DNA from: Eimeria necatrix
Lineage: Eukaryota; Apicomplexa; Conoidasida; Eucoccidiorida; Eimeriidae
Direction of reading: 5' to 3'
Assembly: GCF_000499385.1 (NCBI RefSeq)
Contig: NW_013651868.1
Span: 1 to 12,694 of the forward strand
Length of the DNA: 12,694 nt
The notes under the pieces are model-generated. The model saw only the letters and a program-made list of their open reading frames with translations, had not been told where the DNA came from and made no database searches. Below are positions 1-12,694 of the stretch, piece by piece (position 1 is the stretch's first letter; each line of letters starts with the position of its first letter). A program made the translations under genes and the position numbers.

Positions 1-2
1 GA
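1..2 (+). other. Partial 3-nt exon, Gly (GGA, last two bases)
   Basis: The window opens inside the left copy of a duplication whose right copy reads CAG|GGA|GTGAGG at 325-335. Bases 1-2 match the GA of that codon and the donor GTGAGG follows at 3-8. The acceptor is upstream of the window. No X or Y exon is seen between here and 327, so this Gly is either an extra residue, an alternative exon, or a dead copy. Confidence 0.4.
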
Positions 3-205
3 GTGAGGATCAATAAGCGTGAGGTTTGAGAGAGTGGACAGCGTTGCGACCATGCGCTTCTGCTTGACACTCTTGTGCACCCTAGTCCCTCTAATGCTCA
101 TGTTGGCTGATTCTCGCAACATGCTATCGTGTGCGGAAGCAGTGACTGGTGTTTTTAGATTGTTGCCTCCCTGCTTGTTGCTTTTTTGCTTAATTAGTAC
201 TGAAT
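1..205 (+). repeat. Tandem duplication, left copy
   Basis: Bases 1-205 match 328-532 with no indel and five differences (at 47, 59, 85, 159 and 189), about 97.6% identity, offset 327. The left edge may lie upstream of the window. The copy carries the end of a Gly exon, its donor, and the first 200 bases of the following intron. It contains an ATG at 51 followed by a hydrophobic, signal-peptide-like open frame, judged accidental. Confidence 0.95.
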
Positions 206-3200
206 GCGAATATACATCGTGCCAGCGATGTATCCTGACCCTTTGAAGTCGTTATACAAGAGCTGGCGGACTCTTGCCGCTGTCGCACAGTTCATATAGA
301 TTCTGAATGAAGCGTCACGTTTCCAGGGAGTGAGGATCAATAAGCGTGAGGTTTGAGAGAGTGGACAGCGTTGGGACCATGCGCTGCTGCTTGACACTCT
401 TGTGCACCCTATTCCCTCTAATGCTCATGTTGGCTGATTCTCGCAACATGCTATCGTGTGCGGAAGCAGTGACTGGTGTTTTTAGGTTGTTGCCTCCCTG
501 CTTGTTGCTTTTTTGTTTAATTAGTACTGAATTTGCTTCTTGTGGTCTGATGAAATCGACGCATTAAAGTATTAGATAGAATTGAATACCATGAACCGAG
601 AATGCGCTAGCTCGTCGGCTTCTGGTCAGACATAGTGCTTCCCGTGCTGCTGACAGGGATTGTGCCACCGTGCTTTTTTACCGACGTCGCTCTGATTTTG
701 TGAAGGAGGTGCGTTTATGCAGTACAAAGCTTCTTGTTTGTCCTTGCAAAACAACAGATGATGCCAAAGCGATGCAAATTCGCGGATTATATGTTACCTG
801 CGAGTTTTGTGATATCTTGAAATCCACGATTCTCCTGTGGCGACAGAACATGAGAACGCAATCCACGGAAGAAGTTTGGGAAGCCGCTATTTATGTGGAG
901 AGCGGAGTCTCTAATCAATGTCACAAACGGAGCTCATGCGTTTTCAAACAGTCTTATATCTTAGCTTCGTGTGCAAAACACATATTTGACGGATTGCGTT
1001 TACCTCTAGCGTCCCTACAATGACAAATTCTTTTCCCCAGAAGCTCCTCTCGTTTCTATGATCTGCTGTTGTGAATGAGGTGGCATGATATGATGCACCA
1101 GGAAGGATGACGGCTTGCCTGAGATGTCCACTTATTTTTGCTGAATACAGATGGTATGTGAATAGATGTGACGTTGGTTCCTGGTAAATAAAGGCTGACC
1201 GCTTGTAAATTTGTTGTTTGTTGAAGAGCAGCGGATGAGAGGCTGTTCCTTTCTCATTTCGGAAACGACTGCAATTAGCAAGATTAAAAAATTGGTGTTG
1301 CAATAATCTCGTCGAAGTAGTGTATACGGCGACGTCTATTGCGTGCCTTTTTTGCCCATTCTCTTTATCATAAATTACTTCATTATTAACATTTTCCGAT
1401 CTTGCTGGCGTTTACGTATGCACATTGAAAATGCAATAAAAAGATTAGTTGCTACAAAACGAAGATAGATGTTTGCTCAAACGGCCTACCGGATACTGGG
1501 AACCTGACCAAGAAATCTACTGACCGTCACATCCATGCGCAGCTTAAACGGATCTTGGCAATTAGACTTTAGACTACAGTAGCTCTCATTTGTGGTTGTA
1601 CGGTGAATGGAGTTCGACGCTCTGTCGCTTTAATTATTTATATACTTGCATTATTGTTTTCTTCCGTTAGCAGGCATCAAGTGCACATCCGATGATTTGT
1701 TTCGCATGCTGAGATACGTATTAGATTGCTCTGCAACTGCCACAAATTGTTTGAAAGAGGGTGGTCCGTCCTTGAAACAGATGAACCTGGGACGAGCTAT
1801 ATATAGAGCACTGGTTTGCTAGGGCGTACGTTGAGGTATCTAAGGGATGTCAGGATGCTGTGAAACTTGTGGCCATGCAGCCTACGTCCTACTCCAAGGT
1901 GATACCATCATCCTGAGCTTCGTGTTGCATGCGCGACATCGTCTGGCATCAGCTGCAGGAGTTTCCCCAAGACGAGTCTTAATTATTATAAACGCCGGCT
2001 TAGTTGTAGATACATGGATGACCACATTTGGTCATTTGGCTGACTATTATTCTCATCAAACAGTGCAATCCAGTCATTTGAGGTCTGATATAATCTTGGC
2101 AGCTGCGCGGGGCAGGTTCTTTGCTTTCTGGCAGTGTTGAATTCCGAAAGAATTGAATGGCTTCACTTGTCGTTTCCATGTTCCATGTCAAGTGCGCTGC
2201 TTTCTGAGGCTCCGGTGATTGTAATTTTAGACAATGTTGCATATCCTTTTAACAGTACGTGGGTAGATGCAGTGTGACACTTTGTGTCGATACTTGGACA
2301 ACAACAAATGACAAGGAAGCGTTTGAAAGGGTTCGTCCCTGCGTTTATTGTGTCTCATATACCAAACTCAAATTCGAAGCTTTTCCCTAGGTCACACTTA
2401 AATAATAAATGAACAAATATTAGATGAACCGGATCTGTGCAGGGGAACATGTGCTGTGTTTAACTATCGGCTTAGTACCTCTGCCGCGTTTCTTCTCTCT
2501 GATGGGGAGGAGTTTTGAAGCCTTGCGTCTCTGGCCGCACTTCCTGCTTAGCATTTACCGAATATGTATCTTGAGAGATGTTGCTCATTTGTTTCGATGG
2601 ACTTCTTTTGGCTACAGAAATCTTACCAGTTGTTGAAATGACTTCAGTTCTCTGAAGGAAACACGCCTGCGTCGGATGTGCGGCTATTTTTTCATGGCGT
2701 GCAGCCAGTATGTTATGTTTCATATCGTTGGGCCCTGTTAACGTTGTAGGCTTGAACAGCTCATGTGTTTCCGTTTCATTACTTTATATGGTTAGGCGAA
2801 GAAATCAGGTACGTTTATATGTTATTTCTGGATAAGCTTCTATACGCAAGGTGAAACGATTGATTTGGTGGTATAGTGTGCAGTGCAGCACGTATAGCAC
2901 GTTCTTTCTATTCAGGTTTTCTGGATATTTCTGCTTGCGTATAATCTCAGTTTTATTGGGGTTTCCCTATATGCAGTTCAAGTGCAATGAAGAGCACACT
3001 TGCCCAATTCTAAGGCGATAAAGCCCATAGGCTCAGTCGGCCTAGAAGATTCTAGACGTCGCTCACACAGTTTTGGGCCGTGTTAACTAAGCAGAGTTTG
3101 AGAACGTCCTAACCAATGAAGTTGAATTTAGGTTGGACGATTTTTGCAGTTGTAGGAGATGTTGATACCCAGGTATTCACAGCGCAGTTTCCGTGTGCAG

Positions 3201-6200
3201 AGAGTTTGCACATTTGCATGTCTTCGTTGTTCGTTCACAGATATTAAGAGCAACGTCAGCGAACAAGCTTGAAGGCACTGTTGAGCATTTCGTATAAATT
3301 TTATGCTATTATGATTAGAAGATGGATAACGTCAAAAGAAAAGTAACGTGTTATTTATGCAGCGTTCCATTTTTTTCAGGGAGTAAGCTATGGTAAAATT
3401 TAAATATTTTAGAGTCACTGAGGCTGCGACAGCGCTTAGCTGCTATCCATTGCTGATAAGCTCTTCTAGCTAGTTATGTTATTGCGATGTATATGCGAAC
3501 CGCAGACGTTCTGTGTGTTTGCTGGGCTAGTAAGCATCTGCGTCGACGAAACGGTTAGGCCTGGCTGCCAGTTTCGCAGTTGCATGCAGCATGCGTCTGC
3601 ATCTTTAGTGCGTCATGTGAGCAAGAGCACCGCAACGCCAACTCTGTATTCAAAAGCTCACTAGCTACAGGGCATCTAGCATACCCTAACCTGTCAAACC
3701 AAAGTTCTACATGCTGCTTACTTTGTGGCCCAAAATCTTCGTGGCACCTTGCCCCATTGCACGACGTTTCATTGCTTTGACGCAGATAGTGAGAGCATTC
3801 ATGGAGCTGGACACCGCCAGAGAATGCATGCAATAATACGCTTCCTGTTTCTGTTTTCATAAACAAGAGAGGAAAGGAAAACGCTTACTCGGTTTTGCAT
3901 GGCGGTTAGGTGTCTGTGTTGCTCTACAAAAATCCAGAGCGCTGCCCAGAATTCAGCTAAAATTGTTCTTCAAACGCTACTTAACTGGAAAAAACCTGTG
4001 AAGGCAGATATTTTTCTTGTTGATACCACTACGCAGTAACATTATTGCGTGGCCAGAAGGTAGTTCTTGTCTAACGCTTCAGCCGCTCGTTAAGAAAGAA
4101 GTTTCTAATTCAGTGCTATTCGTGTGAAATAATGATCGTTTTGTTCTACGGAGGCATGTTTTCACGTCTTGTTACGCCAGTAATTGAACGCCTATGATGT
4201 TTATGAAAGGCACAGTGCGTGCGTAAGGGCCTGCTTCTTTTTCCACGCCGTGTAGCCGGTATGTACTTAGGTGTAATGCAGATTATTTGTGCCTGAAACT
4301 GCAGAGATTCGGATTTGTTGCGTTTCTGTTCTGTGTGTCCAGTGCTCTTTGTTAAGCTGGAGGTTTAGTCCATTTCTCGCACGTGAGTTTAGTGTTAGGA
4401 AGCTGAGTCTGTTTCTGACAATCTGACAGGCAAAACAGCGGGTACAGCACGCTTTTGCTGTTTTTCCTAATTTCTGGACGTGTCGTTTTGGGTGGCGGCA
4501 CTGAGTTTGTTATTGCCGAGTTGTTGCTGACCGTGCAGAAGCTGTGCGTTTGCTTGTTTGCAAGTTAATCTTCGACTTTAGAGCGACGAAATTGAAGGTT
4601 TCTAGTAACTTCGTAGATGCCTGTTGACCTTGACCGCCAAGGGGACCTTAAACATAACTCGGCAGGTTCCTTTTGGACTTGAGGTATCTTGCACTAGCAG
4701 ATGCATAATTGCAATGGTTTTTGGTATTTTTGGTTTAGCTAGCCTTAGGCTCTCACATGCGTGCGTATCTTCCTGCGTTTGCAGGCATCAAGGGCATAAT
4801 CAGCGACGTGTGCGTTTCGCTTCGTTTATCGCACGCCTCAGCCTTCGTTTTCACCGTTTAAGAAGCGCCTCGACGACGTTGGCAACAAGGACGTTAGATG
4901 GAGTCACGAAGCCGTTCGTTTACAAGGGTGTAGGTCTCAATTGCGGCAAGGAATCAGCAGGCGGTCAACGGTGCTGGTCATTTTACGTTTGCTATTGTTA
5001 GTTATTGCAAACTATTCGGATGTTTGAACTCGACATGCGGCAGCATCTAGCCCCCCACTCATTTGCATTCATTCACTAGAATTTTCTAAACACGTGAGGC
5101 AGACGTGTCGCTTTGCTTCGCCATTGATAGCTATGGAGAGAGGGTGGGAGTTTGAGATTTCGCCAAAATTTGGCAACTTTGTATGACAACGTTTGTGCAT
5201 CTTATGAAGGGTTACTGAACACTGCGTACGAAGCTGCTAGCAATCTTTTAGTTGTTGTGTCCAGCTCAAGGATGCTGTCTCAGGGAGTGTCGGCGGCTGT
5301 GGCAAGCTGTGCATTTGGATGATCTTGCATTGCTTTTCCAAAGCCCGTGAGTGCAAGCAGTACAATCCTCCTTTTTTGGACTTGCTGAAAAACAGCCGAG
5401 TGGGTGCCGTGCAAAAGACACTGATTACGCGTTCGAGCAGACTCGCGAGTCAGACCAAAATCTACACTTCTGCCGTAAACTGAGCTTAAACCTGTCGACG
5501 ATTGGGAAAGCGTATCGTGAGTAAACAGGATGCTTGATATTTTGTTACAACTCACCTGACGGATCGTCGATAGGGGCTTCTTGCAGGTCAAAGTATCCCT
5601 GCAGTCCTCTAACGCCTACGACCCCTTTGAACGGGAATATGCTTGTGCGGAATGCAGCCAGTGCGTGAAAACAACGACACCAGCAATTAAGAATTGAGAC
5701 TGAGAAGCGTTCAGTGCCGCATGACTTTGTTTGCTGAGCAGATGTATTGGAATAGCGACTGAACGTCTGCTCTTTTGTCAAGTCAAAGCCAACTCCTACC
5801 AGCAAGTTTGAAAAGTTTTTGTTGAGGTGCTGCTGCCAGTAACCTCTGCAGCTTAGCAAGTGCAACCCACCTGGTCTAGTTTCTGTGGTTTTGCTGCTTT
5901 CCGTGATCGGCAAATTTGGGTTAAGGCTGCAGTAGAGCAGGAGCTGGCTGAGCTGCAAGGCAGGCTTTGTAGAGTCCTGGAAGTATCATCGAGAAATGGA
6001 GTAGCCGTACCAAAGATGGGATCTCTAAGCGGATACAGGGAACTGCAGTTTAGACTCAAGAAAGGCTGTTATGTAGGTGTGAAGAAAAAGATATTTGTGT
6101 TTCGCTGCTAACGTGTATGAAATGTTTACATCTAGTTGTTTCTAACAAGAAAGCAGATACAAAATCAGCCGCCTGCATGCTACGCATGTTTCTTGATTAG

Positions 6201-9200
6201 GTACATGCGTCGCCTCCTTCCCAGTTTCTACACAATTGGCTGGAAAGCGTTTAACACAAATTGTTGGTCTATACAGATTCTCTTGGGACGCCTTCTTTGA
6301 GGGAGTAAGTTGAAGTAGAGCTGATGTATCGGGAGGTGGTGAATGCCGCCGTGATGCATTTATTTTTGGTATAACTGGGTACATCAATCTATCGTGTGAC
6401 TTCTGTTGCATGCGCAGCCACATCTGGCCTTCGCATCAAATGCTTTTCGTAATTGCGGCCCTACGGCAGAAAGGTGAAGCATAGATATTCAGTCTTTTCT
6501 GCTGTTCTGTTTTGCAAAGCCAAGAGTCATTGGAATGAGCAAAAACTTCGATATTTGCCAGACATTTTGCACATACATGTGGACAATTTTGAGCTTGCAT
6601 GTAGCGCCAAACAGAAACGAGCACCGAAGGACTAAGCACGCGCTTGGTTGGTGTCTTCAGCACGAGCACAATGCTTGTGTAGACGCCAGCAGTTGCGAAA
6701 CGTTGCATGTTTAAATGATGCTTTACTGTTTCCGCGCAGTCTGTGAGTGCTTAGAATGCGATGTTCCTACATGATGCAATCAACATGAGACACAGTGAGA
6801 AGATACTTGATTGATATTGGTTGTACATTTGATGTGGTGCCGAGTTCGCACCGCGCTTTTGCGAAGATTGGAGAAACTTATTCCGGTGATTGTGATTTAT
6901 ATAGTAGGGGAAACACTTCTTATGAAACGATACATGATCTCCTTTTCTAGCCTGATAGCCTTAACTGGGTGTGAAGCCGCGCGCTTCACTGATTCCCTTA
7001 TGTGACGTTGATCGTTTGTAGCAACGTCAGCTGCTTCTGCTGCTGCAGCAGCAAGCAGCAAGGGGGCACCAGGGGGGCCCCTAAAGGGTCTTTGAGGGCA
7101 CCCTGGGTGCCCCCGTGGGGCCCCACAGCTGGTTCTTATTCTCCTGAAAGCAAGCATGTGGACTGCTTAAAAGGACGTGAGCTAGTGTTAGGGAACTAGC
7201 AATTTTTTCGTATCTCTCAGCACATTTGTTTAAACGCATTATGCTGCAGACTGGTGGTTCAGTTTGTTGTGCCTGTGATATAATGAAGGTTTGTTTCTTG
7301 AACTTTTTCCATGAATTGGCAAATGAAATTCTCGAGTGTCATGGCGTCTGCTGAGAGCTTTGAAGGCAAAATGAAACGGTCAGCTTGTCGATATCGTCAC
7401 TGCTCTGGTGTGCAACACTGCAATCGTCGCGAAAAGATGGGCTTTCTTCGGGCTTTCGGCTTTCTTCGGGCTTTCCAGCAAAGTCTCGTTTCGCGGACGG
7501 CCGTGACTGTTTTGTGGTCTTCGCGTACACATACAATGTGCGTTAAAGTGTTCCTTAGTCCAGCTAAAGGGAAGCGATCGAGTTTTGCTTGAAGGTTAAA
7601 GATTGTAGAGACGAAAGGTTAACTTTTGGAGATGTACTACCAAAGCATCGAAACAAAATTTGAAAGGGATTGGCGCGTGCAAATGGAAGATGGGTGCTTG
7701 CTTACTGATGCCTGCACTCATGAAATCTTTTCGCCGTTGCGAACTGTCGTTCTTTAAAATAAATCGACACAATGTCGCTAGGCATTTGTCGAATATCTCT
7801 TTTTCTTCACAACTGATGCACACGCGCTGGCCGGCGCCCGGAAAAAATTTTATTGACAGATATTTGTGGAGCGCTGGGCGTCCAGGGAGTACGTTTTCGC
7901 GAAGCAGTGTTTGCTGTGCATTCGTGAGGGCCACTAGCCGTCACGTCAGCCACTTTTACTAGTCACGGTGCTGAGGTGGGCGCGCAACTCACAGGCAGTC
8001 TGTTTTCATTCTTGTTGTATTTCTAGTCATGTATCTGTTGGTGGTCGTTGATGGTATGCATTCTAGGAAACTTTAAGTATCTGTGCTGCAATGACAGTTA
8101 AAACGCTGTTTGCCCTATTTTCAGGTCCTACTTAAGTGATTTATCTTGCACAAAAACATCTGCTTGGCGAAAAAGATGTCGTGGTTTTGTCCTAGTCTGG
8201 TTACAGATATCACAGTTCAGGTTCGTTTAGCAACTCTTGAAGAAGTTTTGAAGTAAAGTGTTTATTCCTAGTTAGTTTGTTGCGATTGACCACATCTCCA
8301 ATCCCTGAGTATCACGATGCTCTTCACATTTACTCTGAGTAGCCTGTAGGTTCTTTGGCATGTGCCTCTAGCTCGATTTCACATTGTTCAACAAGGGGCA
8401 GAAAGTTCCTAGAATGCCTGTTACTTTTCAGCTCGCTGCTTCGATGTGAAGTGAATTTGCATTCATCTCTAAATAGTGAAATGGGCTCAACGAATGGAAT
8501 GTGAGATATTGAAGCCAGAGTAGTGTTCTTTTGCGGAACATATAAGTGCATTTAGCTCAATTGCCTTCGAATCATTACGCTTCTCGATATTCAGCAACAT
8601 TTTTCTCTTACTTGGCGTCGCTTGTTATTTTTGCTTACCCGTTCAAAGCTCCAAGCATTTAGCATGAGCAAAGCTTTTGCCAGGAACAACAAGCATCCAG
8701 TAACGCATTAAAGGCACGCAAATCAGAGGAAACCAATCTCAAAACTAGGAAAGCACTTGGCAGCAAAGTATCTGTTGCCGTTTTTTATCTACGGGCCCAG
8801 AATATATGATTCCAGTTTTCAATTTTGATCCCGCAACATCAGTTTTTTGCGGAAATTGCACATTTACTGCCAGCATAACGCATGTATTTGGAGCAGGGTG
8901 AGAGCTCGTTCTGACATGCAGCCAGTGTGTCACCGCGTGCTCGTGTGGAACGCTCCAGAGCGCAAAGTTGGGTAGTATCGCTGCCGTAGCTTCGTAGACT
9001 ACTCGCATTAGAACTCCGCAATGGGGTCGCCCAATGCATTTTGGAACCGGACTTACACTGCATATGTTGCGGAAGTCTAGCACTTGGCAATACACTGGAG
9101 GTAATTTGGTCAAGTGCGCCTGATGCGCAGTCGTGCGGTTACACCACGATTGACTATAAAGCTTTTGGGCATGCACTGCTGGCACGGTTGTTTGTATTCG

Positions 9201-12200
9201 CGTTTTTGTCTTAAGAACAAGTATTCGTACATGATAAGAGTACTGCAGCTTTTTATTTAAAAGCGCAGATGTCGTTACTCAGCTAGACACGATTTGTCCG
9301 TGATGTCGGACCTCAAACAATGCTGCGCCTCACGCTCATGTAGTAGCGAGTTGCTACGAGACTCTCATAGTTTTTGCTTTCAAATGTTATCAATGTTTTA
9401 TACAGTTTACTTTGCTTCATAATCAATCCACCGTGTCTTCTGCGGGGGCGCATATGCAGCATTTTGTTGATCTGGTTCAAGAGCACTGCTTCTCCAGGGA
9501 GTCTTCAGTGACCAATGCAAGGTTCAGAAAGTCATTCAATGTCATGGCAAGGCATGAGCTCTTTACAGTCGTTCAGTACACGCACTATCTTTGTAATAAA
9601 TAATGCGTGTGAAGCCTTCAAATCAAGCACGGTCGATCGTTAAGCCTTCTTGATAGCGTGTGCCACCGCTGAACGGAAGGCGAACTACATGCGGTTTTTA
9701 TTAGATTGTCTAGCATTATTGTTGCAGTTGAAGACGTTGCGATGCGTTCCAATCTCAAGAAGTGGCTTTGGATCTACTTTCTAATATCCTTAAATCTTTG
9801 TGCTGCATTCTCAGTTTGCGTCGCAGTATGCCCTTGCGTATTGGCTTTACACTAAGCATGTGATTTGCTGCCAGCGGCTGCGTAATGCTTCACGGCTGAC
9901 CCACAACGTTCTGGCTCAGGCCGTACGCGAATTGCAAGAGTAGCACATTCACACGGTAGGCGCTCAACACTGAGTCATCGGATGCATCTCCAAATCTCTT
10001 GCTGTCCGTGGTTTGTGACTGAAGTCATGCATCATCGGCATGCTAAGACCATATTCATTAGGTCTCAATAACGGCAACTATCCTTTTTCTGAGTTAGACG
10101 GCGTTTTTTAAAGCATACGTCATCTTCGCCGAGTCACCAGCTTCTGACTATATAATGCTGCGCTTCATTGGGATTCTGTCTTCGCCCTGCGTTTTTCCCA
10201 AGCAAATTATTTCTCAACGACTTGAGGGGCGTTTCTGAAGAGCATATTTTTGTGCATGATACACTTGGTTGCTTTCTTGCCAGCAGTAGAAACAAGGCAA
10301 ATATATTTCTCGCAGCTTCTTGATCACAACATCTCGTTTCGTAGAAATCACCAGCTTATGTAGCTATGCGGTGGCTCTACTACTCAGGCAAAACAAAGCG
10401 GCGACAGGAAAAAACAATGTTGACTCTGTAGGGAGTACGTAACGAACGATGCGGGCTTTTCCGTAATATCTTGCCATTTGCATAACACAGCAATTGCTTT
10501 TATTTGGACATACAATTATCGGCTATTATAGATGCCACTTGTTTAGCAGTGTGATGAGCTAGAGTGACTCGTATCCTGTCGAAGTGTTGCACTTGAAGGC
10601 AAGTGCATCCCCACTACTTTCTGCTGTATTAGATATGCTAGGAGTGGGTTAAAAACTATAGCCAACACACAGTTGGTGCTCGTTCGTTCAGCATGACCTG
10701 GGAAATTGCTTTACTTGTCAGATCGCTGTCTCCCACATTGAAGGTTCGCAGCACTTCAGGCTTAAAGGCCAGTTGTCTCACCTGCACACACTGTGCAAGT
10801 GCCAAGAAGGCAGGAAACACGCAAATAAAGCAAAGCATGGTTCATTGTCGCGATGTAGCCTGTGAGTGTACGGGAGGCGCTGTCTTGTTACTCTGAAATT
10901 AAAAGGGAGCCATGCATGTGCATTAGGATGAGCTTTCGGGCTAGCGGATGTTCCACGCCTGTAGTGGAGGTGAAACTTCTGACTCAAAAGCCTATTGTTG
11001 ACGATTCAGTGAATCACAATAGTGTTGGAGTATATCTCTGTTAGGAGTCTCTGGCGATGTTTTCTTTGGCCTGTTTGACGTGAATTATATTTTTCTTTGG
11101 AGATGCCTCTGTTTTGCTTATCCGCCGCATTTGTTGTAGTGACATGCCGATCATCCCTTTTGATTTGCTATTTGAAACGAATAACGCTCTGAGAAGTGTT
11201 GCTGGATGCAAAACATTTTATCGAGGCTCATTGTGTGTTTTTGAAAGATTGTGGGAATTTTCTGCCAGCAAAACCTTGGGGGCAGCGAGTACGAAATACG
11301 GTGTTCGATATGAGCTTCCCCATGCACAAAGTAGCGTTGTGAGTCCTATAGGGCTTTATTGTGAATCACAGCTGGAGTACGTACCAACAGTTACCTAAAT
11401 GCGAGCTATCGACTGTAGCGTGTTATTGAATTCGCCCTTGTGCAAAGGCTCACGTTCAGTTACCCATACAAAAGGTTAACACAAACTAAAAGGAAATCTT
11501 TTTTTCGCAGGGAGTAGGCTGCGGTGTATGCAAATGGTGCAACTGTCGATCATATAATATTTGGCCATTAGCTTCAATGACGAATTGGCCATTAACATTA
11601 TGCGGGCGTACAATAGCTTGGGCAGTCACAGTTGCAACTTGCATTTTGGTTTGACACTGATCGTAGATTTGCGCATTATATTAATGTCCGAATCACAGGC
11701 ATACCTTCCCTCTGCTGCTTGATACAGTAAGCTTGATATGGTGTTTAAGAGCCAAACACCGCTACATTTTATGCATCTCAGAGTTGCGGTCATTCAGCTC
11801 TCCTTGGACGAGTTGCTATGCAGCCAGCTACTCTTCGTTCATTACGCAAACGCACATGAATCTCTCTATTTTTTGAATGGTTTCTGCAGTGTAGTCTTCG
11901 TTTATTACGCAAACGCACATGGCTTTATCTATTCTTTCAGTGGTTCCAGCAATCGGGAGCCGGAGAACACCGGGCTGCAATGTGTTCCGTTACTACTACG
12001 CAAACTTCAGGGTCCAAGAATGTAGAACATAATATACTCGGATATTCTGCGATGGTGCGGTGCAGCCCGTATGTTAGGTTAAAGCTCTTGGGTTCCACTG
12101 ACAGGGTAGAGCAGCAGCATACGATCACAGTGACATCAACGTTTACGAGCTCACGGTTGCCAGCATGTCACCTGGTGAATCGAAACGACAGACTTGAGGG

Positions 12201-12694
12201 TGCGTGTGTATTGTTTCGAGCACTGCATGCACTGCAGCCAGTACGAAACGCAACAATATATATGGGCTTCAATGCACATGAAACAGCATATTGGGACGGC
12301 ATTTCTAGTCTGCCTGTGACGAACACAGTGATGCTGGGTCTCGGGGCACCCGCCCTTTGTCGGCACTCTTGACATAGGTGTGGAATGGCTCCGTTGCGCA
12401 TGCAGAAGGGAGTTTCTTGCTAAAATGTGCCGTGTTTTGCAGGGAGTAGGCATTGCTCTATGCGAAGGATCGAAATGTTCCTTGTGCAATATCTAGCCGT
12501 TGCTTTTTTAACGCGTTAGCTGTGAATATGTCTTAGTCTTCCGATGGCACTGATGATCACAGTTGCGCTCAAAAGCTTGTTTCGATTTGGATGCATATGT
12601 AGGCACTGAGTAGGCGACTGTGTTGAATAGGTGTGCCTTGTGGCTGCCTCCTGCGTGTGCAGACCTGATTAATGGTGTCTCATCTGAACGGTGC
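1..12694 (+). CDS. Collagen-like Gly-X-Y protein gene made of single-codon (3-nt) exons; internal part, both ends outside the window
   Basis: Seen: about 28 sites where an acceptor-like AG is followed by three bases and then a GT donor, mostly GTRNG, all on the + strand. Taking each three-base piece as one phase-0 codon gives Gly at every third position from 327 to 12443 with two residues between. Triplets are GEM, GYP, GKP, GPP (327-5658), GSD, GPP, GRA (6302-9920) and GPR, GPP, G (10432-12443). Known: Gly-X-Y repeats rich in Pro at X and Y form the collagen triple helix, usually in secreted or extracellular structural proteins; which kind this is cannot be told. Inferred: introns of about 160-710 bases separate the exons, and each junction must act first as acceptor and then as donor. 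The start codon, any signal peptide and the stop are not in the window. Alternative: the sites are recursive-splicing stepping stones or a DNA motif that is not translated. Confidence 0.55.
206..326 (+). other. Intron remainder between the duplicated Gly exons
   Basis: Unique sequence ending in the pyrimidine-rich acceptor CACGTTTCCAG at 316-326. No AG-NNN-GTRNG site is seen here, so the X and Y exons expected between two Gly exons are missing from this 327-base interval. Confidence 0.4.
327..329 (+). other. 3-nt exon, Gly (GGA)
   Basis: Acceptor TTTCCAG ends at 326 and donor GTGAGG starts at 330, close to the ideal GTGAGT. It is the first Gly in the unbroken register. The next exon is GAG at 706, so the following intron is about 376 bases. 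That intron includes the right copy of the duplication (328-532) and an unremarkable stretch to 705. Confidence 0.55.
328..532 (+). repeat. Tandem duplication, right copy
   Basis: Near-identical to 1-205 (five substitutions, no gaps). Identity stops abruptly at 532. The copy begins inside the Gly exon at 327-329, so the duplication event copied a splice acceptor/donor junction or its right half together with intron sequence. Confidence 0.95.
706..708 (+). other. 3-nt exon, Glu (GAG), X position
   Basis: Context is AAG|GAG|GTGCGT: a T-rich run (TGATTTTGTG) precedes the AG at 704-705, and a GTRNG donor starts at 709. It is the only AG-NNN-GTRNG site between 330 and 1148. Glu is common at the X position of collagens. 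The following intron is about 442 bases with nothing else recognised. Confidence 0.4.
1151..1153 (+). other. 3-nt exon, Met (ATG), Y position
   Basis: Context is CAG|ATG|GTATGT with a T-rich tract (TTATTTTTGCTGAATACAG) just before it; GTATGT is the donor also used at 2708, 4259 and 12069. The following intron, 1154-1822, is about 669 bases. It contains an open frame 1634-1822 without a start codon (49 codons from 1673), probably accidental. Confidence 0.45.
1823..1825 (+). other. 3-nt exon, Gly (GGC)
   Basis: Context is TAG|GGC|GTACGT, the same donor as the Gly exons at 7886 and 10432. A third base differing from the usual GGA fits a synonymous Gly codon. It restores the triplet register between the Gly exons at 327 and 3380. 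The following intron is about 430 bases with nothing else recognised. Confidence 0.5.
2256..2258 (+). other. 3-nt exon, Tyr (TAC), X position
   Basis: Context is AACAG|TAC|GTGGGT after the pyrimidine-rich CATATCCTTTT. It is the only AG-NNN-GTRNG site found between 1829 and 2700. Tyr is uncommon but allowed at X. The following intron is about 446 bases with nothing else recognised. Confidence 0.4.
2705..2707 (+). other. 3-nt exon, Pro (CCA), Y position
   Basis: Context is TGCAG|CCA|GTATGT after a tract with six T (2691 region). The word TGCAGCCAG recurs five times on the + strand against about 0.05 expected. The surrounding sequence resembles the sites at 4256 and 12066 (GTGYAG-CCN-GTATGT). 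The following intron is about 672 bases with nothing else recognised. Confidence 0.6.
3380..3382 (+). other. 3-nt exon, Gly (GGA)
   Basis: Context is CATTTTTTTCAG|GGA|GTAAGC, one of the best acceptor and donor pairs in the window. The following intron of about 674 bases (to 4056) contains two TGCATGCA words at 3581 and 3825 and no other recognised feature. Confidence 0.65.
4057..4059 (+). other. 3-nt exon, Lys (AAG), X position (weak)
   Basis: Context is GGCCAG|AAG|GTAGTT. The donor lacks the G at position 5 and the acceptor tract is poor. It is chosen because one exon is needed between Gly 3380 and Pro 4256 and because GKP is a common collagen triplet. A rival, CAG|TGC|GTGCGT at 4216, would leave an intron of only about 37 bases before 4256. 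Confidence 0.25.
4256..4258 (+). other. 3-nt exon, Pro (CCG), Y position
   Basis: Context is GTAG|CCG|GTATGT after the pyrimidine-rich CTGCTTCTTTTTCCACGCCG. The site matches those at 2705 and 12066 except at the codon third base, as expected for a synonymous Pro codon. The following intron is about 668 bases; a 95-codon ATG frame at 4714-5001 lies partly in it and is judged accidental. Confidence 0.6.
4927..4929 (+). other. 3-nt exon, Gly (GGT)
   Basis: Context is CAAG|GGT|GTAGGT, with a strong donor. It fills the Gly slot of the register better than CAG|GGA|GTGTCG at 5284, which lies only 57 bases before the Pro exon at 5344. The acceptor tract (CGTTCGTTTACAAG) is modest. The following intron is about 414 bases with nothing else recognised. 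Confidence 0.5.
5344..5346 (+). other. 3-nt exon, Pro (CCC), X position
   Basis: Context is TGCTTTTCCAAAG|CCC|GTGAGT. The donor GTGAGTGC is shared exactly with the X exon at 6740 and nearly with that at 10859. The following intron is about 311 bases with nothing else recognised. Confidence 0.55.
5658..5660 (+). other. 3-nt exon, Pro (CCA), Y position
   Basis: Context is TGCAG|CCA|GTGCGT, a member of the TGCAGCCAG family. With 4927 and 5344 it forms the triplet GPP. The following intron is about 641 bases with a TGCATGC at 6174 and nothing else recognised. Confidence 0.6.
6302..6304 (+). other. 3-nt exon, Gly (GGA)
   Basis: Context is CGCCTTCTTTGAG|GGA|GTAAGT: a perfect metazoan-style donor and a pyrimidine-rich tract, although the acceptor is GAG. 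The following intron is about 435 bases and holds a TGCATGC at 6407. Confidence 0.6.
6740..6742 (+). other. 3-nt exon, Ser (TCT), X position
   Basis: Context is TGTTTCCGCGCAG|TCT|GTGAGT. The donor GTGAGTGC equals that of the Pro exon at 5344. TCT differs by one base from the CCT used at X elsewhere, so this looks like a Pro exon mutated to Ser. The following intron is about 431 bases and contains the GC-rich hairpin at 7031-7124. Confidence 0.5.
7031..7124. repeat. CAG/CTG palindrome plus GC-rich hairpin cluster
   Basis: TGCTGCTGCAGCAGCA at 7038-7053 is a perfect 16-bp palindrome. GGGCACCC at 7096-7103 and GGGTGCCC at 7105-7112 form a perfect inverted repeat around one base. GGGGGCACC at 7062-7070 can pair with GGTGCCCCC at 7106-7114, and GGGGCCCC occurs at 7074 and 7117. 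The composition is sharply different from the surroundings. It lies inside the intron before the GAC exon. Confidence 0.9.
7174..7176 (+). other. 3-nt exon, Asp (GAC), Y position (weak acceptor)
   Basis: Context is TTAAAAG|GAC|GTGAGC. The donor is good but the acceptor lacks a pyrimidine tract. It is the best site in register between Ser 6740 and Gly 7886; AAG|CAT|GTGGAC at 7155 is a rival. The following intron is about 709 bases and holds an 18-bp tandem repeat at 7440-7475. Confidence 0.3.
7440..7475. repeat. Perfect 18-bp tandem repeat, two copies
   Basis: GGCTTTCTTCGGGCTTTC occurs at 7440-7457 and again at 7458-7475. The sequence is pyrimidine-rich on the + strand. It lies within an intron of the proposed gene and no function is apparent. 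Confidence 0.95.
7886..7888 (+). other. 3-nt exon, Gly (GGA)
   Basis: Context is GGCGTCCAG|GGA|GTACGT; the donor equals those at 1826 and 10435. The following intron is about 454 bases with nothing else recognised. Confidence 0.6.
8343..8345 (+). other. 3-nt exon, Pro (CCT), X position
   Basis: Context is TTTACTCTGAGTAG|CCT|GTAGGT, with a pyrimidine-rich tract (CTCTTCACATTTACTCTG) upstream. The third-base T is another synonymous Pro variant. The following intron is about 576 bases with nothing else recognised. Confidence 0.55.
8922..8924 (+). other. 3-nt exon, Pro (CCA), Y position
   Basis: Context is CATGCAG|CCA|GTGTGT, a member of the TGCAGCCAG family, completing GPP with 7886 and 8343. 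The following intron is about 573 bases and holds a GCATGCA word at 9169. Confidence 0.6.
9498..9500 (+). other. 3-nt exon, Gly (GGA), poor donor
   Basis: Context is CTGCTTCTCCAG|GGA|GTCTTC. The acceptor is strong but the donor deviates from GTRNG. It is the only Gly candidate between 8925 and 9917, and its downstream sequence shares the ATGCAA at +18 seen after other Gly sites, so it belongs to the family. It could be a weak or dead exon. About 157 bases follow to the next proposed exon. Confidence 0.4.
9658..9660 (+). other. 3-nt exon, Arg (CGT), X position (weak)
   Basis: Context is CCTTCTTGATAG|CGT|GTGCCA. The tract is pyrimidine-rich but the donor lacks G at position 5. Chosen because one residue is needed between Gly 9498 and Ala 9920. 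CGT is one base from the CCT used at other X exons. The following intron is about 259 bases; it contains an ATG at 9742 opening a hydrophobic 37-codon frame, judged accidental. Confidence 0.25.
9920..9922 (+). other. 3-nt exon, Ala (GCC), Y position
   Basis: Context is TCTGGCTCAG|GCC|GTACGC, a GTRNG donor. Ala is common in collagen triplets. If the weak Arg exon at 9658 is wrong, this would be X and a Y exon would be missing in the next 509 bases, where I see no AG-NNN-GTRNG site. Confidence 0.35.
10432..10434 (+). other. 3-nt exon, Gly (GGA)
   Basis: Context is TTGACTCTGTAG|GGA|GTACGT. Downstream intron sequence resembles that after the Gly exons at 11511 and 12443 (ATGC at +18 from the first G of GGGAGT, then AATAT and GCC-rich words). 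The following intron is about 424 bases with nothing else recognised. Confidence 0.6.
10859..10861 (+). other. 3-nt exon, Pro (CCT), X position
   Basis: Context is TCGCGATGTAG|CCT|GTGAGT. The donor GTGAGTGT matches the X-family donors at 5347 and 6743. The following intron is about 424 bases; nothing else is recognised in it. Confidence 0.55.
11286..11288 (+). other. 3-nt exon, Arg (CGA), Y position
   Basis: Context is GGCAG|CGA|GTACGA. GCAG-CGA-GTACGAAA here differs by a single base from GCAG-CCA-GTACGAAA at the Pro exon 12238, so it appears to be a Pro codon changed to Arg. GPR is a common collagen triplet. The following intron is about 222 bases. Confidence 0.5.
11511..11513 (+). other. 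3-nt exon, Gly (GGA)
   Basis: Context is CTTTTTTTCGCAG|GGA|GTAGGC: a very strong tract, and a donor identical to that after 12443. The following intron of about 552 bases holds a 10-bp direct repeat (TTGGCCATTA at 11561 and 11585) and a 63-bp tandem repeat at 11833-11958. Confidence 0.65.
11833..11958. repeat. 63-bp tandem repeat, two diverged copies
   Basis: Copies run 11833-11895 and 11896-11958. The first 26 bases (around ATTACGCAAACGCACATG) differ at one position, then similarity falls. A TACGCAAAC echo occurs at 11997. It lies in the intron after the Gly exon at 11511. The period is a multiple of three, but no gene is evident. Confidence 0.85.
12066..12068 (+). other. 3-nt exon, Pro (CCC), X position
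   Basis: Context is GTGCAG|CCC|GTATGT. It matches the site at 2705 over GTGCAG-CCN-GTATGTTA with only the codon third base changed. The following intron is about 169 bases. Confidence 0.55.
12238..12240 (+). other. 3-nt exon, Pro (CCA), Y position
   Basis: Context is CACTGCAG|CCA|GTACGA, a TGCAGCCAG family member that completes GPP with 11511 and 12066. The following intron is about 202 bases. Confidence 0.6.
12443..12445 (+). other. 3-nt exon, Gly (GGA), last in the window
   Basis: Context is GTGTTTTGCAG|GGA|GTAGGC. The last 249 bases of the window show no further AG-NNN-GTRNG site, so the next X exon should lie beyond 12694 if intron lengths stay typical. Confidence 0.65.

Follow-up and report, generated by a model that had tools for sequence, protein, structure and literature searches.

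The stretch of DNA considered here, called the window below, is the whole of contig NW_013651868.1 (C342; 12,694 bases) of Eimeria necatrix, and the other contigs named by C-numbers belong to the same genome assembly of 44.0 Mb and 1148 contigs. Conventional coding content was sought and rejected: the longest of the 30 stop-to-stop frames of at least 80 amino acids spans 177 residues, four of these frames gave no match in a Pfam search, and Rfam gave no RNA-gene match to the window at gathering score. What the window does contain is a series of three-base segments, each set between a splice-like acceptor and donor (AG-NNN-GTRNG), which on the + strand spell a collagen-like Gly-X-Y string from position 327 to 12445. 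It is likely an internal piece of a gene in whose transcript, by prediction, single codons are joined one after another by splicing.

The AG-NNN-GTRNG motif occurs 29 times on the + strand of the window and five times on the - strand, and 200 runs of an order-1 Markov simulation averaged 5.8 and never exceeded 14. GGN or CCN triplets fill 18 of the 29 + strand sites and none of the five on the - strand, compared with 0.49 in the simulation. An original prediction for this stretch had placed about 26 such sites on the + strand against some six expected by chance, with GGN and CCN dominating, and both statements are borne out by the counts. Equal numbers of AG-(GGN or CCN)-GTRNG sites on the minus strand or in unrelated DNA, which it named as a refuting result, do not occur: there are none on the minus strand and three, counted over both strands, in unrelated stretches totalling 24 kb. 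Three unrelated stretches of 8 kb hold six YAG-NNN-GTRNG sites, both strands summed.

The enrichment is confined to one strand and to one spacing. With AG and GTRNG set k bases apart (k = 0-24), the + strand of the window has 29 sites at k = 3 and 2-11 at any other k, and the collagen-like contigs C972 and C1040 have 43 against 2-16 and 42 against 5-13; in C1027, which is mainly free of such arrays, the numbers are 13 and 3-13. Sense and antisense counts are 43 and 2 in C972 (18.4 kb, read on its reverse strand) and 42 and 5 in C1040 (16.3 kb). AG abutting GT (k = 0), the layout of a recursive splice site, is not enriched, with 6, 2, and 6 occurrences in the window, C972, and C1040, and no second enriched exon length besides 3 nt was found at k = 0-24 in the collagen contigs or at k = 0-15 in the non-collagen loci described below. 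The sites have the character of spliceosomal GT-AG introns, with a GTRNG donor and a pyrimidine-rich YAG acceptor. AG and GTRNG belonged to the selection criteria; outside these letters the positions from -14 to -5, save -9, are chiefly T or C, and of 71 sites, pseudocounts included, about 55 have C at -3 and about 40 have T at +6.

When the genome was searched with the window's DNA, a paralogous contig, C972, aligned over some 11.6 kb of the 12.7 kb as segments that are 66-78% identical, and a MAFFT alignment, in which gaps count as differences, makes 65.7% of window positions identical. From this alignment the state of each window site in C972 was read, a site being counted as kept where C972 has AG-NNN-GTRNG too, and 26 of the 29 are kept. 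Fourteen of these, all predicted exons on the + strand, carry the identical codon: GGA Gly at 327..329 (AG|GGA|GTGAG), 3380..3382, 6302..6304, 10432..10434, 11511..11513, and 12443..12445; CCA Pro at 2705..2707, 5658..5660, 8922..8924, and 12238..12240; CCG Pro at 4256..4258; CCC Pro at 5344..5346; ATG Met at 1151..1153; and TCT Ser at 6740..6742. Another five + strand exons differ synonymously, namely GGC Gly at 1823..1825 (GGT in C972), GGT Gly at 4927..4929 (GGA), CCT Pro at 10859..10861 (CCA), CGA Arg at 11286..11288 (CGG), and CCC Pro at 12066..12068 (CCT). At the remaining seven, on the same strand, the residue changes: GAG Glu at 706..708 is CCT Pro in C972, TAC Tyr at 2256..2258 is CAC His, ATA Ile at 3786..3788 is CCA Pro, GAC Asp at 7174..7176 is GAA Glu, GGA Gly at 7886..7888 is CGA Arg at the same site, CCT Pro at 8343..8345 is CTT Leu, and GCC Ala at 9920..9922 is ATC Ile, with GTT Val at the apparent C1040 counterpart. 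The AG and GT of the shared sites are identical in 52 of 52 cases, as follows from their selection, and flanks 60-120 bases away are 66-68% identical. Three further + strand sites, at 4214 (TGC), 5139 (AGG), and 11246 (ATT), lie outside the Gly-X-Y register and have no site in C972.

Taken in order, the 26 conserved sites spell GEM GYP GIP GPP GSD GPP A GPR GPP G, in which the lone A (9920) is the sole irregular place. Seven of the eight Gly-to-Gly steps are steps of three, a regularity that was equalled by 3 of 200,000 shuffles. The original prediction counted ten regularly spaced Gly exons. Nine of them stand, with a GTRNG donor (327, 1823, 3380, 4927, 6302, 7886, 10432, 11511, and 12443); the tenth, a GGA at 9498..9500 (+) whose acceptor is conserved, is followed by the poor donor gtcttc, where C972 lacks a GT, and is left uncounted as a possible decayed or weak exon. 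Its seventh triplet, G-R-A, is confirmed for the Ala at 9920 only; the Gly is the doubtful 9498, and the Arg is a possible weak CGT exon at 9657..9659 (+; donor gtgcc) that reads tagCGTgcgc, with a GC donor, in C972 and is likewise uncounted. A Lys given for the third triplet probably came from an unconserved AAG at 4057, and is replaced by the Ile of ATA 3786 that aligns with the Pro of C972.

Relatives of the window extend this pattern to other contigs. C972 has an extra triplet, G-E-P, opposite window positions 3380-4256 and another near its end, which points to gain or loss of entire triplets. C1040 aligns to the window and C972 only as pieces of 59-89 bases, and when it is read with a splice-site matrix trained on those two a Gly-X-Y string emerges, with 38 sense and five antisense sites at a score of at least 8; leave-one-out matrices at the same score gave 35 and 0 in C972 and 22 and 2 in the window. 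Shorter runs of Gly-X-Y type occur in C593, C327, C437 (13 sense and four antisense sites), and C873, and C744 and C1027 have short or patchy arrays only. Across seven collagen contigs there is no stop among 156 decoded codons, a count that omits the short or patchy arrays of C744 (seven codons, no stop) and C1027 (13 codons, one stop). Two other features of these contigs were observed. A repeat some 175 bp long at C1040:4750-4926 has dispersed copies on C253, C299, C327, and C352, 69-90% identical and often about 1 kb apart. Besides its short collagen array C1027 has (L015:746-2349, minus strand) two open frames whose motifs suggest a protease and a zinc-knuckle gag of a retroelement.

The predicted introns have an order of their own. 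Over 330..7885 (+) the first 15 of the 25 window introns between conserved exons measure 376, 442, 669, 430, 446, 672, 403, 467, 668, 414, 311, 641, 435, 431, and 709 nt, cycling in threes with class means of 412, 419, and 672 nt; a within-class spread as small was reached by 11 of 20,000 shuffles, and the same test gave 7 of 20,000 for C972 (24 introns) and none for C1040 (21 introns). The intron stretches and exon lists behind these tests were picked by hand, omitting regions of missing exons and off-register sites. Comparison of C1040 introns with one another gave mean local scores of 19.8, 21.9, and 22.7 at lags 3, 6, and 9 and 17.6-18.8 at lags 1, 2, 4, 5, 7, and 8, and similarity in C972 is slightly raised at lags 6 and 9. 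The three-step lengths together with the lagged similarity indicate that the collagen genes grew as a unit of three exons and three introns, some 1.0-1.5 kb long, was duplicated. A G+C-rich palindromic patch at window 7030-7132 has copies 84-89% identical on C483, C986, C27, C420, and C443, and is likely to be a dispersed element within an intron.

Duplication can also be seen at the scale of single codons. At the start of the window (1..532, +) positions 1-205 repeat 328-532 with 98% identity at a shift of 327 nt, one intron plus one codon; position 1 corresponds to base two of the GGA exon. At C798:101944-102986 (L033:3944-4986) eight tandem copies of a 131-nt unit, which contains a single YAG-NNN-GTACG site, spell P A A A P A A P; this array is a snapshot of intron-plus-codon units multiplying. 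In C327 a three-site unit recurs about 1.6 kb further on with 80% identity, the first copy reading G-P-P and the second A-A-P. The arrays would thus have lengthened through tandem duplication of intron-plus-codon units, one-codon units in C798 and at the start of the window and three-codon units in the collagen genes, and every duplication would add one residue or one Gly-X-Y triplet with the frame kept.

The layout is shared by loci that do not encode collagen-like strings. C200 was found through sites with CCN and GGA that recur roughly every 200 nt, and C798 and C561 through another pattern; they were picked for carrying hits and are uninformative on the frequency of the layout in the genome. 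The last 18.5 kb of C200 hold 91 sense and seven antisense sites with varied codons. Pooled over the 65.4 kb of C200, C561, and C798, YAG-NNN-GTRNG occurs 296 times in the sense and 13 times in the antisense direction, and in a scan of k = 0-15 every other spacing gives 6-22 sense sites, with six at k = 0. C200 decodes to 122 codons (nine antisense; median intron 151 nt) with a matrix derived from that very locus, and this C200 matrix decodes 114 codons in C561 (16 antisense) and 87 in C798 (three antisense). No stop occurs among these 323 codons, where 10.9 would be expected from position-specific composition (P = 1.5e-5). G is the first base in 122 of the 323 and A the last in 139, with GGA, GCA, GAA, and AGA common; this bias suggests that a splicing preference may favour Gly, and hence collagen-like strings. 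Genome-wide pattern counts exceed those of a reversed-pattern control, and we give no gene number because one count visibly includes CAG repeats and another may.

At C200 the series is preceded by a conventional first exon, an open frame at C200:232343-232900 (L029:2343-2900) that, judged by eye, opens with what resembles a signal peptide, a hydrophobic stretch coming next. The best donor among its 20 GTs, TGC TCC|GTAAGT, is in phase 0, as is the second best, and lies ahead of the one-codon series, whose first site is at L029:3162. Among 5.8 billion proteins, with candidates needing common five-residue words and similar length, this exon had one match at E 0.01, a 126-amino-acid protein identical over the entire query. 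The decoded C200 and C561 proteins align with one another, their score being equalled under three gap costs by 6, 3, and 9 shuffles in 2000, and blastn of C200 DNA against C561 DNA gave no match. A first, shorter decode of about half of C561 was not significant against C200 (120 of 2000 shuffles), and significance came with the longer one. Decoded C798 resembled neither C200 nor C561. Searches of solved structures gave no convincing match, with best E-values of 1, 0.23, and 0.44.

A matrix trained only on C200, where the codons are varied, also recovers collagen-like order. It reads C972 as GAPGNPGPMGHPSGEPGPPGPPGERRLPIGPRGPPGPPG, 39 codons with none antisense, in which nine of 11 Gly steps are steps of three; this was matched by none of 20,000 shuffles, and by two and none at two stricter thresholds. 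For C1040 it gives six of 10 steps (29 of 20,000 shuffles; 20 and 129 at the stricter thresholds). Fewer Gly steps could be scored in C593 (2 of 2; 680 of 20,000), C437 (2 of 3; 1443 of 20,000), and C873 (1 of 2; 6492 of 20,000), and C327, C744, and C1027 gave 0 of 1 each.

Serial three-base exons spelling Gly-X-Y, as the original prediction proposed, are the best reading of the window: the signal is specific to strand and spacing, conserved in C972, recurrent in C1040, and free of stops. Its restriction to collagen proved too narrow, as codons of other kinds share the layout elsewhere. A long run with Gly at every third place is present in C972, in C1040, and, on conserved sites, in the window, with interruptions. 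Several observations weigh against this reading. Seven of the 12 codons that differ between the window and C972 alter the residue. The Gly rule is broken by the CGA Arg and one missing Gly in C972, by the weak or lost Gly at window 9498, by gaps in C1040, and by Ala in place of Gly in C327, and the stop in C1027 (at 10465) lies outside its Gly/Pro array. The region 8924-10432 is irregular in three paralogues (G-P-P-(G?)-(R?)-A-G in the window, R-L-P-I-G in C972, and P-P-V-G in C1040), and represents either a true helix interruption or decayed exons. Under the C200 matrix the window alone is not significant at any of three thresholds (2 of 7 steps, 6013 of 20,000 shuffles; 3 of 7, 1646; 3 of 6, 1069), because true exons fall under the threshold and chance sites enter, and Gly spacing is significant at all three in just two of nine contigs (C972 and C1040). 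Scores against the Pfam collagen family PF01391 stay under its cut-off of 27.2 bits, at 22.9 for C972 (38 residues), 17.1 for the window (26), and 25.7 for C1040 (36), the queries being short incomplete strings assembled by hand with off-register sites omitted; the strings are therefore termed collagen-like and not family members. At the non-collagen loci the decoder accepts 3-nt exons only, and gaps of 500-1000 nt may conceal missed codons or longer exons. Decoded C200, C561, and C798 match no Pfam family (one E-value of 0.18, for the shorter C561), and the search of 5.8 billion proteins, made with C200 and C561, found nothing for them except C200's own exon 1.

Two further observations concern the collagen-like sequences. 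After the irregular gap a small aliphatic residue stands ahead of Gly in all three paralogues, Val at C1040:7581, Ile at C972:14483, and Ala at window 9918, possibly a conserved helix interruption. Conventional collagen elsewhere in the genome was also considered: there are 116 PF01391 matches among the 150 of 418 candidates that were scored, and because many of them overlap in several frames and on both strands they were taken for G+C-rich low-complexity DNA.

Much of the evidence against intact genes would fit former one-codon-exon genes, now pseudogenes or remnants that are neither spliced nor translated. The degraded sites at window 9498, in C972 (CGA), and in C1040 (missing Gly exons), the seven residue-altering changes among the 12 differing codons, and the want of homologues for decoded C200 and C561 are what such decay might leave. 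We nevertheless regard it as improbable, since 323 non-collagen and 156 collagen-contig codons hold no stop, splice sites are kept at 26 of 29 places while their flanks are 66-68% identical, and five of the 12 codon changes, in codons for Gly, Pro, and Arg, leave the residue the same. More improbable again is that the sites serve as recursive-splicing, or ratchet, points in long non-coding introns, their triplets being without coding meaning. An acceptor next to a donor does look like a recursive splice site, and long introns would be removed stepwise, but recursive sites are not known to have an exon between AG and GT, and k = 0 is not enriched here; the triplets, moreover, follow Gly-X-Y order, avoid stops, and yield two proteins that can be aligned.

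Tandem duplication did give rise to the units, which would also suit a degenerate non-coding repeat with an incidental AG-NNN-GTRNG core that is never spliced. The introns of the window and C972 can hardly be aligned with those of C1040, yet core and Gly-X-Y order are kept, and C200, C561, and C798 have the core in common in unrelated DNA, with varied triplets and no stops; a repeat of this kind is thus highly unlikely. Least likely of all is that splice-like words have clustered by chance in intronic DNA rich in T and G. The T- and G-rich sense strand does raise the number of chance matches, to the 5.8 expected, but 29 were seen, and a spacing of three alone is enriched, likewise in C972, C1040, C200, C798, and C561; these controls refute a chance origin.

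If the window is part of a gene of one-codon exons, the standard spliceosome would process its transcript. Acceptor and donor, with 3 nt between them, are probably too close for joint occupancy, so that introns would be removed in 5'-to-3' order. At each step one codon would be added to the growing upstream exon and the next donor exposed, a ratchet akin to recursive splicing that leaves three bases behind each time. We infer transcription, the order of splicing, translation, and function from the DNA sequence. Judged from its Gly-X-Y sequence, the product is likely to be a secreted or surface triple-helical structural protein.

Several known systems share part of this design. Animal fibrillar collagen genes encode Gly-X-Y strings and arose by duplication of exon units that keeps the Gly register, with exons typically of 54 or 45 bases; the string and the register-keeping duplication are alike here, whereas exons of tens of bases are not. 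In the recursive splicing of Drosophila an acceptor abuts a donor, giving a zero-length exon, and a long region is removed stepwise, in contrast to the three-base coding exon predicted here. Single 3-nt exons are reported for Drosophila homothorax, where the microexon is alternatively spliced (PMC7392893), and for RPS24 (PMC12686416). They illustrate that a one-codon exon can be spliced, but each is a lone 3-nt exon among ordinary ones, whereas here nearly each codon would have its own exon. The micro-exon genes (MEGs) of Schistosoma mansoni are reported (PMC10526429) to have 10-20 short exons, mostly of 15 bp (6-81 bp in the text and 3-81 in the abstract), secreted products, and a structure with which automatic annotation struggles. 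The resemblance lies in serial short exons, mostly multiples of three in MEGs, amid far longer introns. Exon size and number differ, 3 nt being the sole enriched length here with 87-122 decoded exons per non-collagen locus, the organism is a protist, and both collagen and non-collagen strings occur. As to secretion, the start of C200 exon 1 looks like a signal peptide by eye, and the other loci are seen without their start.

Open-access literature, consulted as listed titles and abstract openings, contained isolated 3-nt microexons and the schistosome MEGs, with no gene of serial single-codon exons and no paper combining Eimeria and microexon. Single-codon exons probably represent a gene architecture of their own in this coccidian, which would occur at several loci, collagenous or not, entail 87-122 or more consecutive spliced steps, and grow by duplication of intron and codon, one residue or one Gly-X-Y triplet each time.

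Apart from these loci, the Eimeria surface-antigen family PF11054 gave 131 matches among the 150 of 158 candidates that were scored genome-wide, bunched on few contigs, among them C38, C26, and C79. Cyclospora cayetanensis is reported to have just four PF11054-type antigens, unclustered (PMC4851813).

It is likely that this coccidian has genes made of long runs of single-codon exons that grew by duplication of intron-plus-codon units. Should this be true, the working assumption of exons as coding units visible to gene finders, spliced aligners, and homology searches would fail, and with three-base exons offering no sequence to align, such genes would be largely missed by annotation. They would test the smallest exon that the spliceosome can use serially and would need an ordered, ratchet-like model of splicing. 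Proteins could lengthen residue by residue as units of intron and codon are duplicated, and an animal parasite would turn out to have a group of predicted structural or surface proteins that had been hidden.

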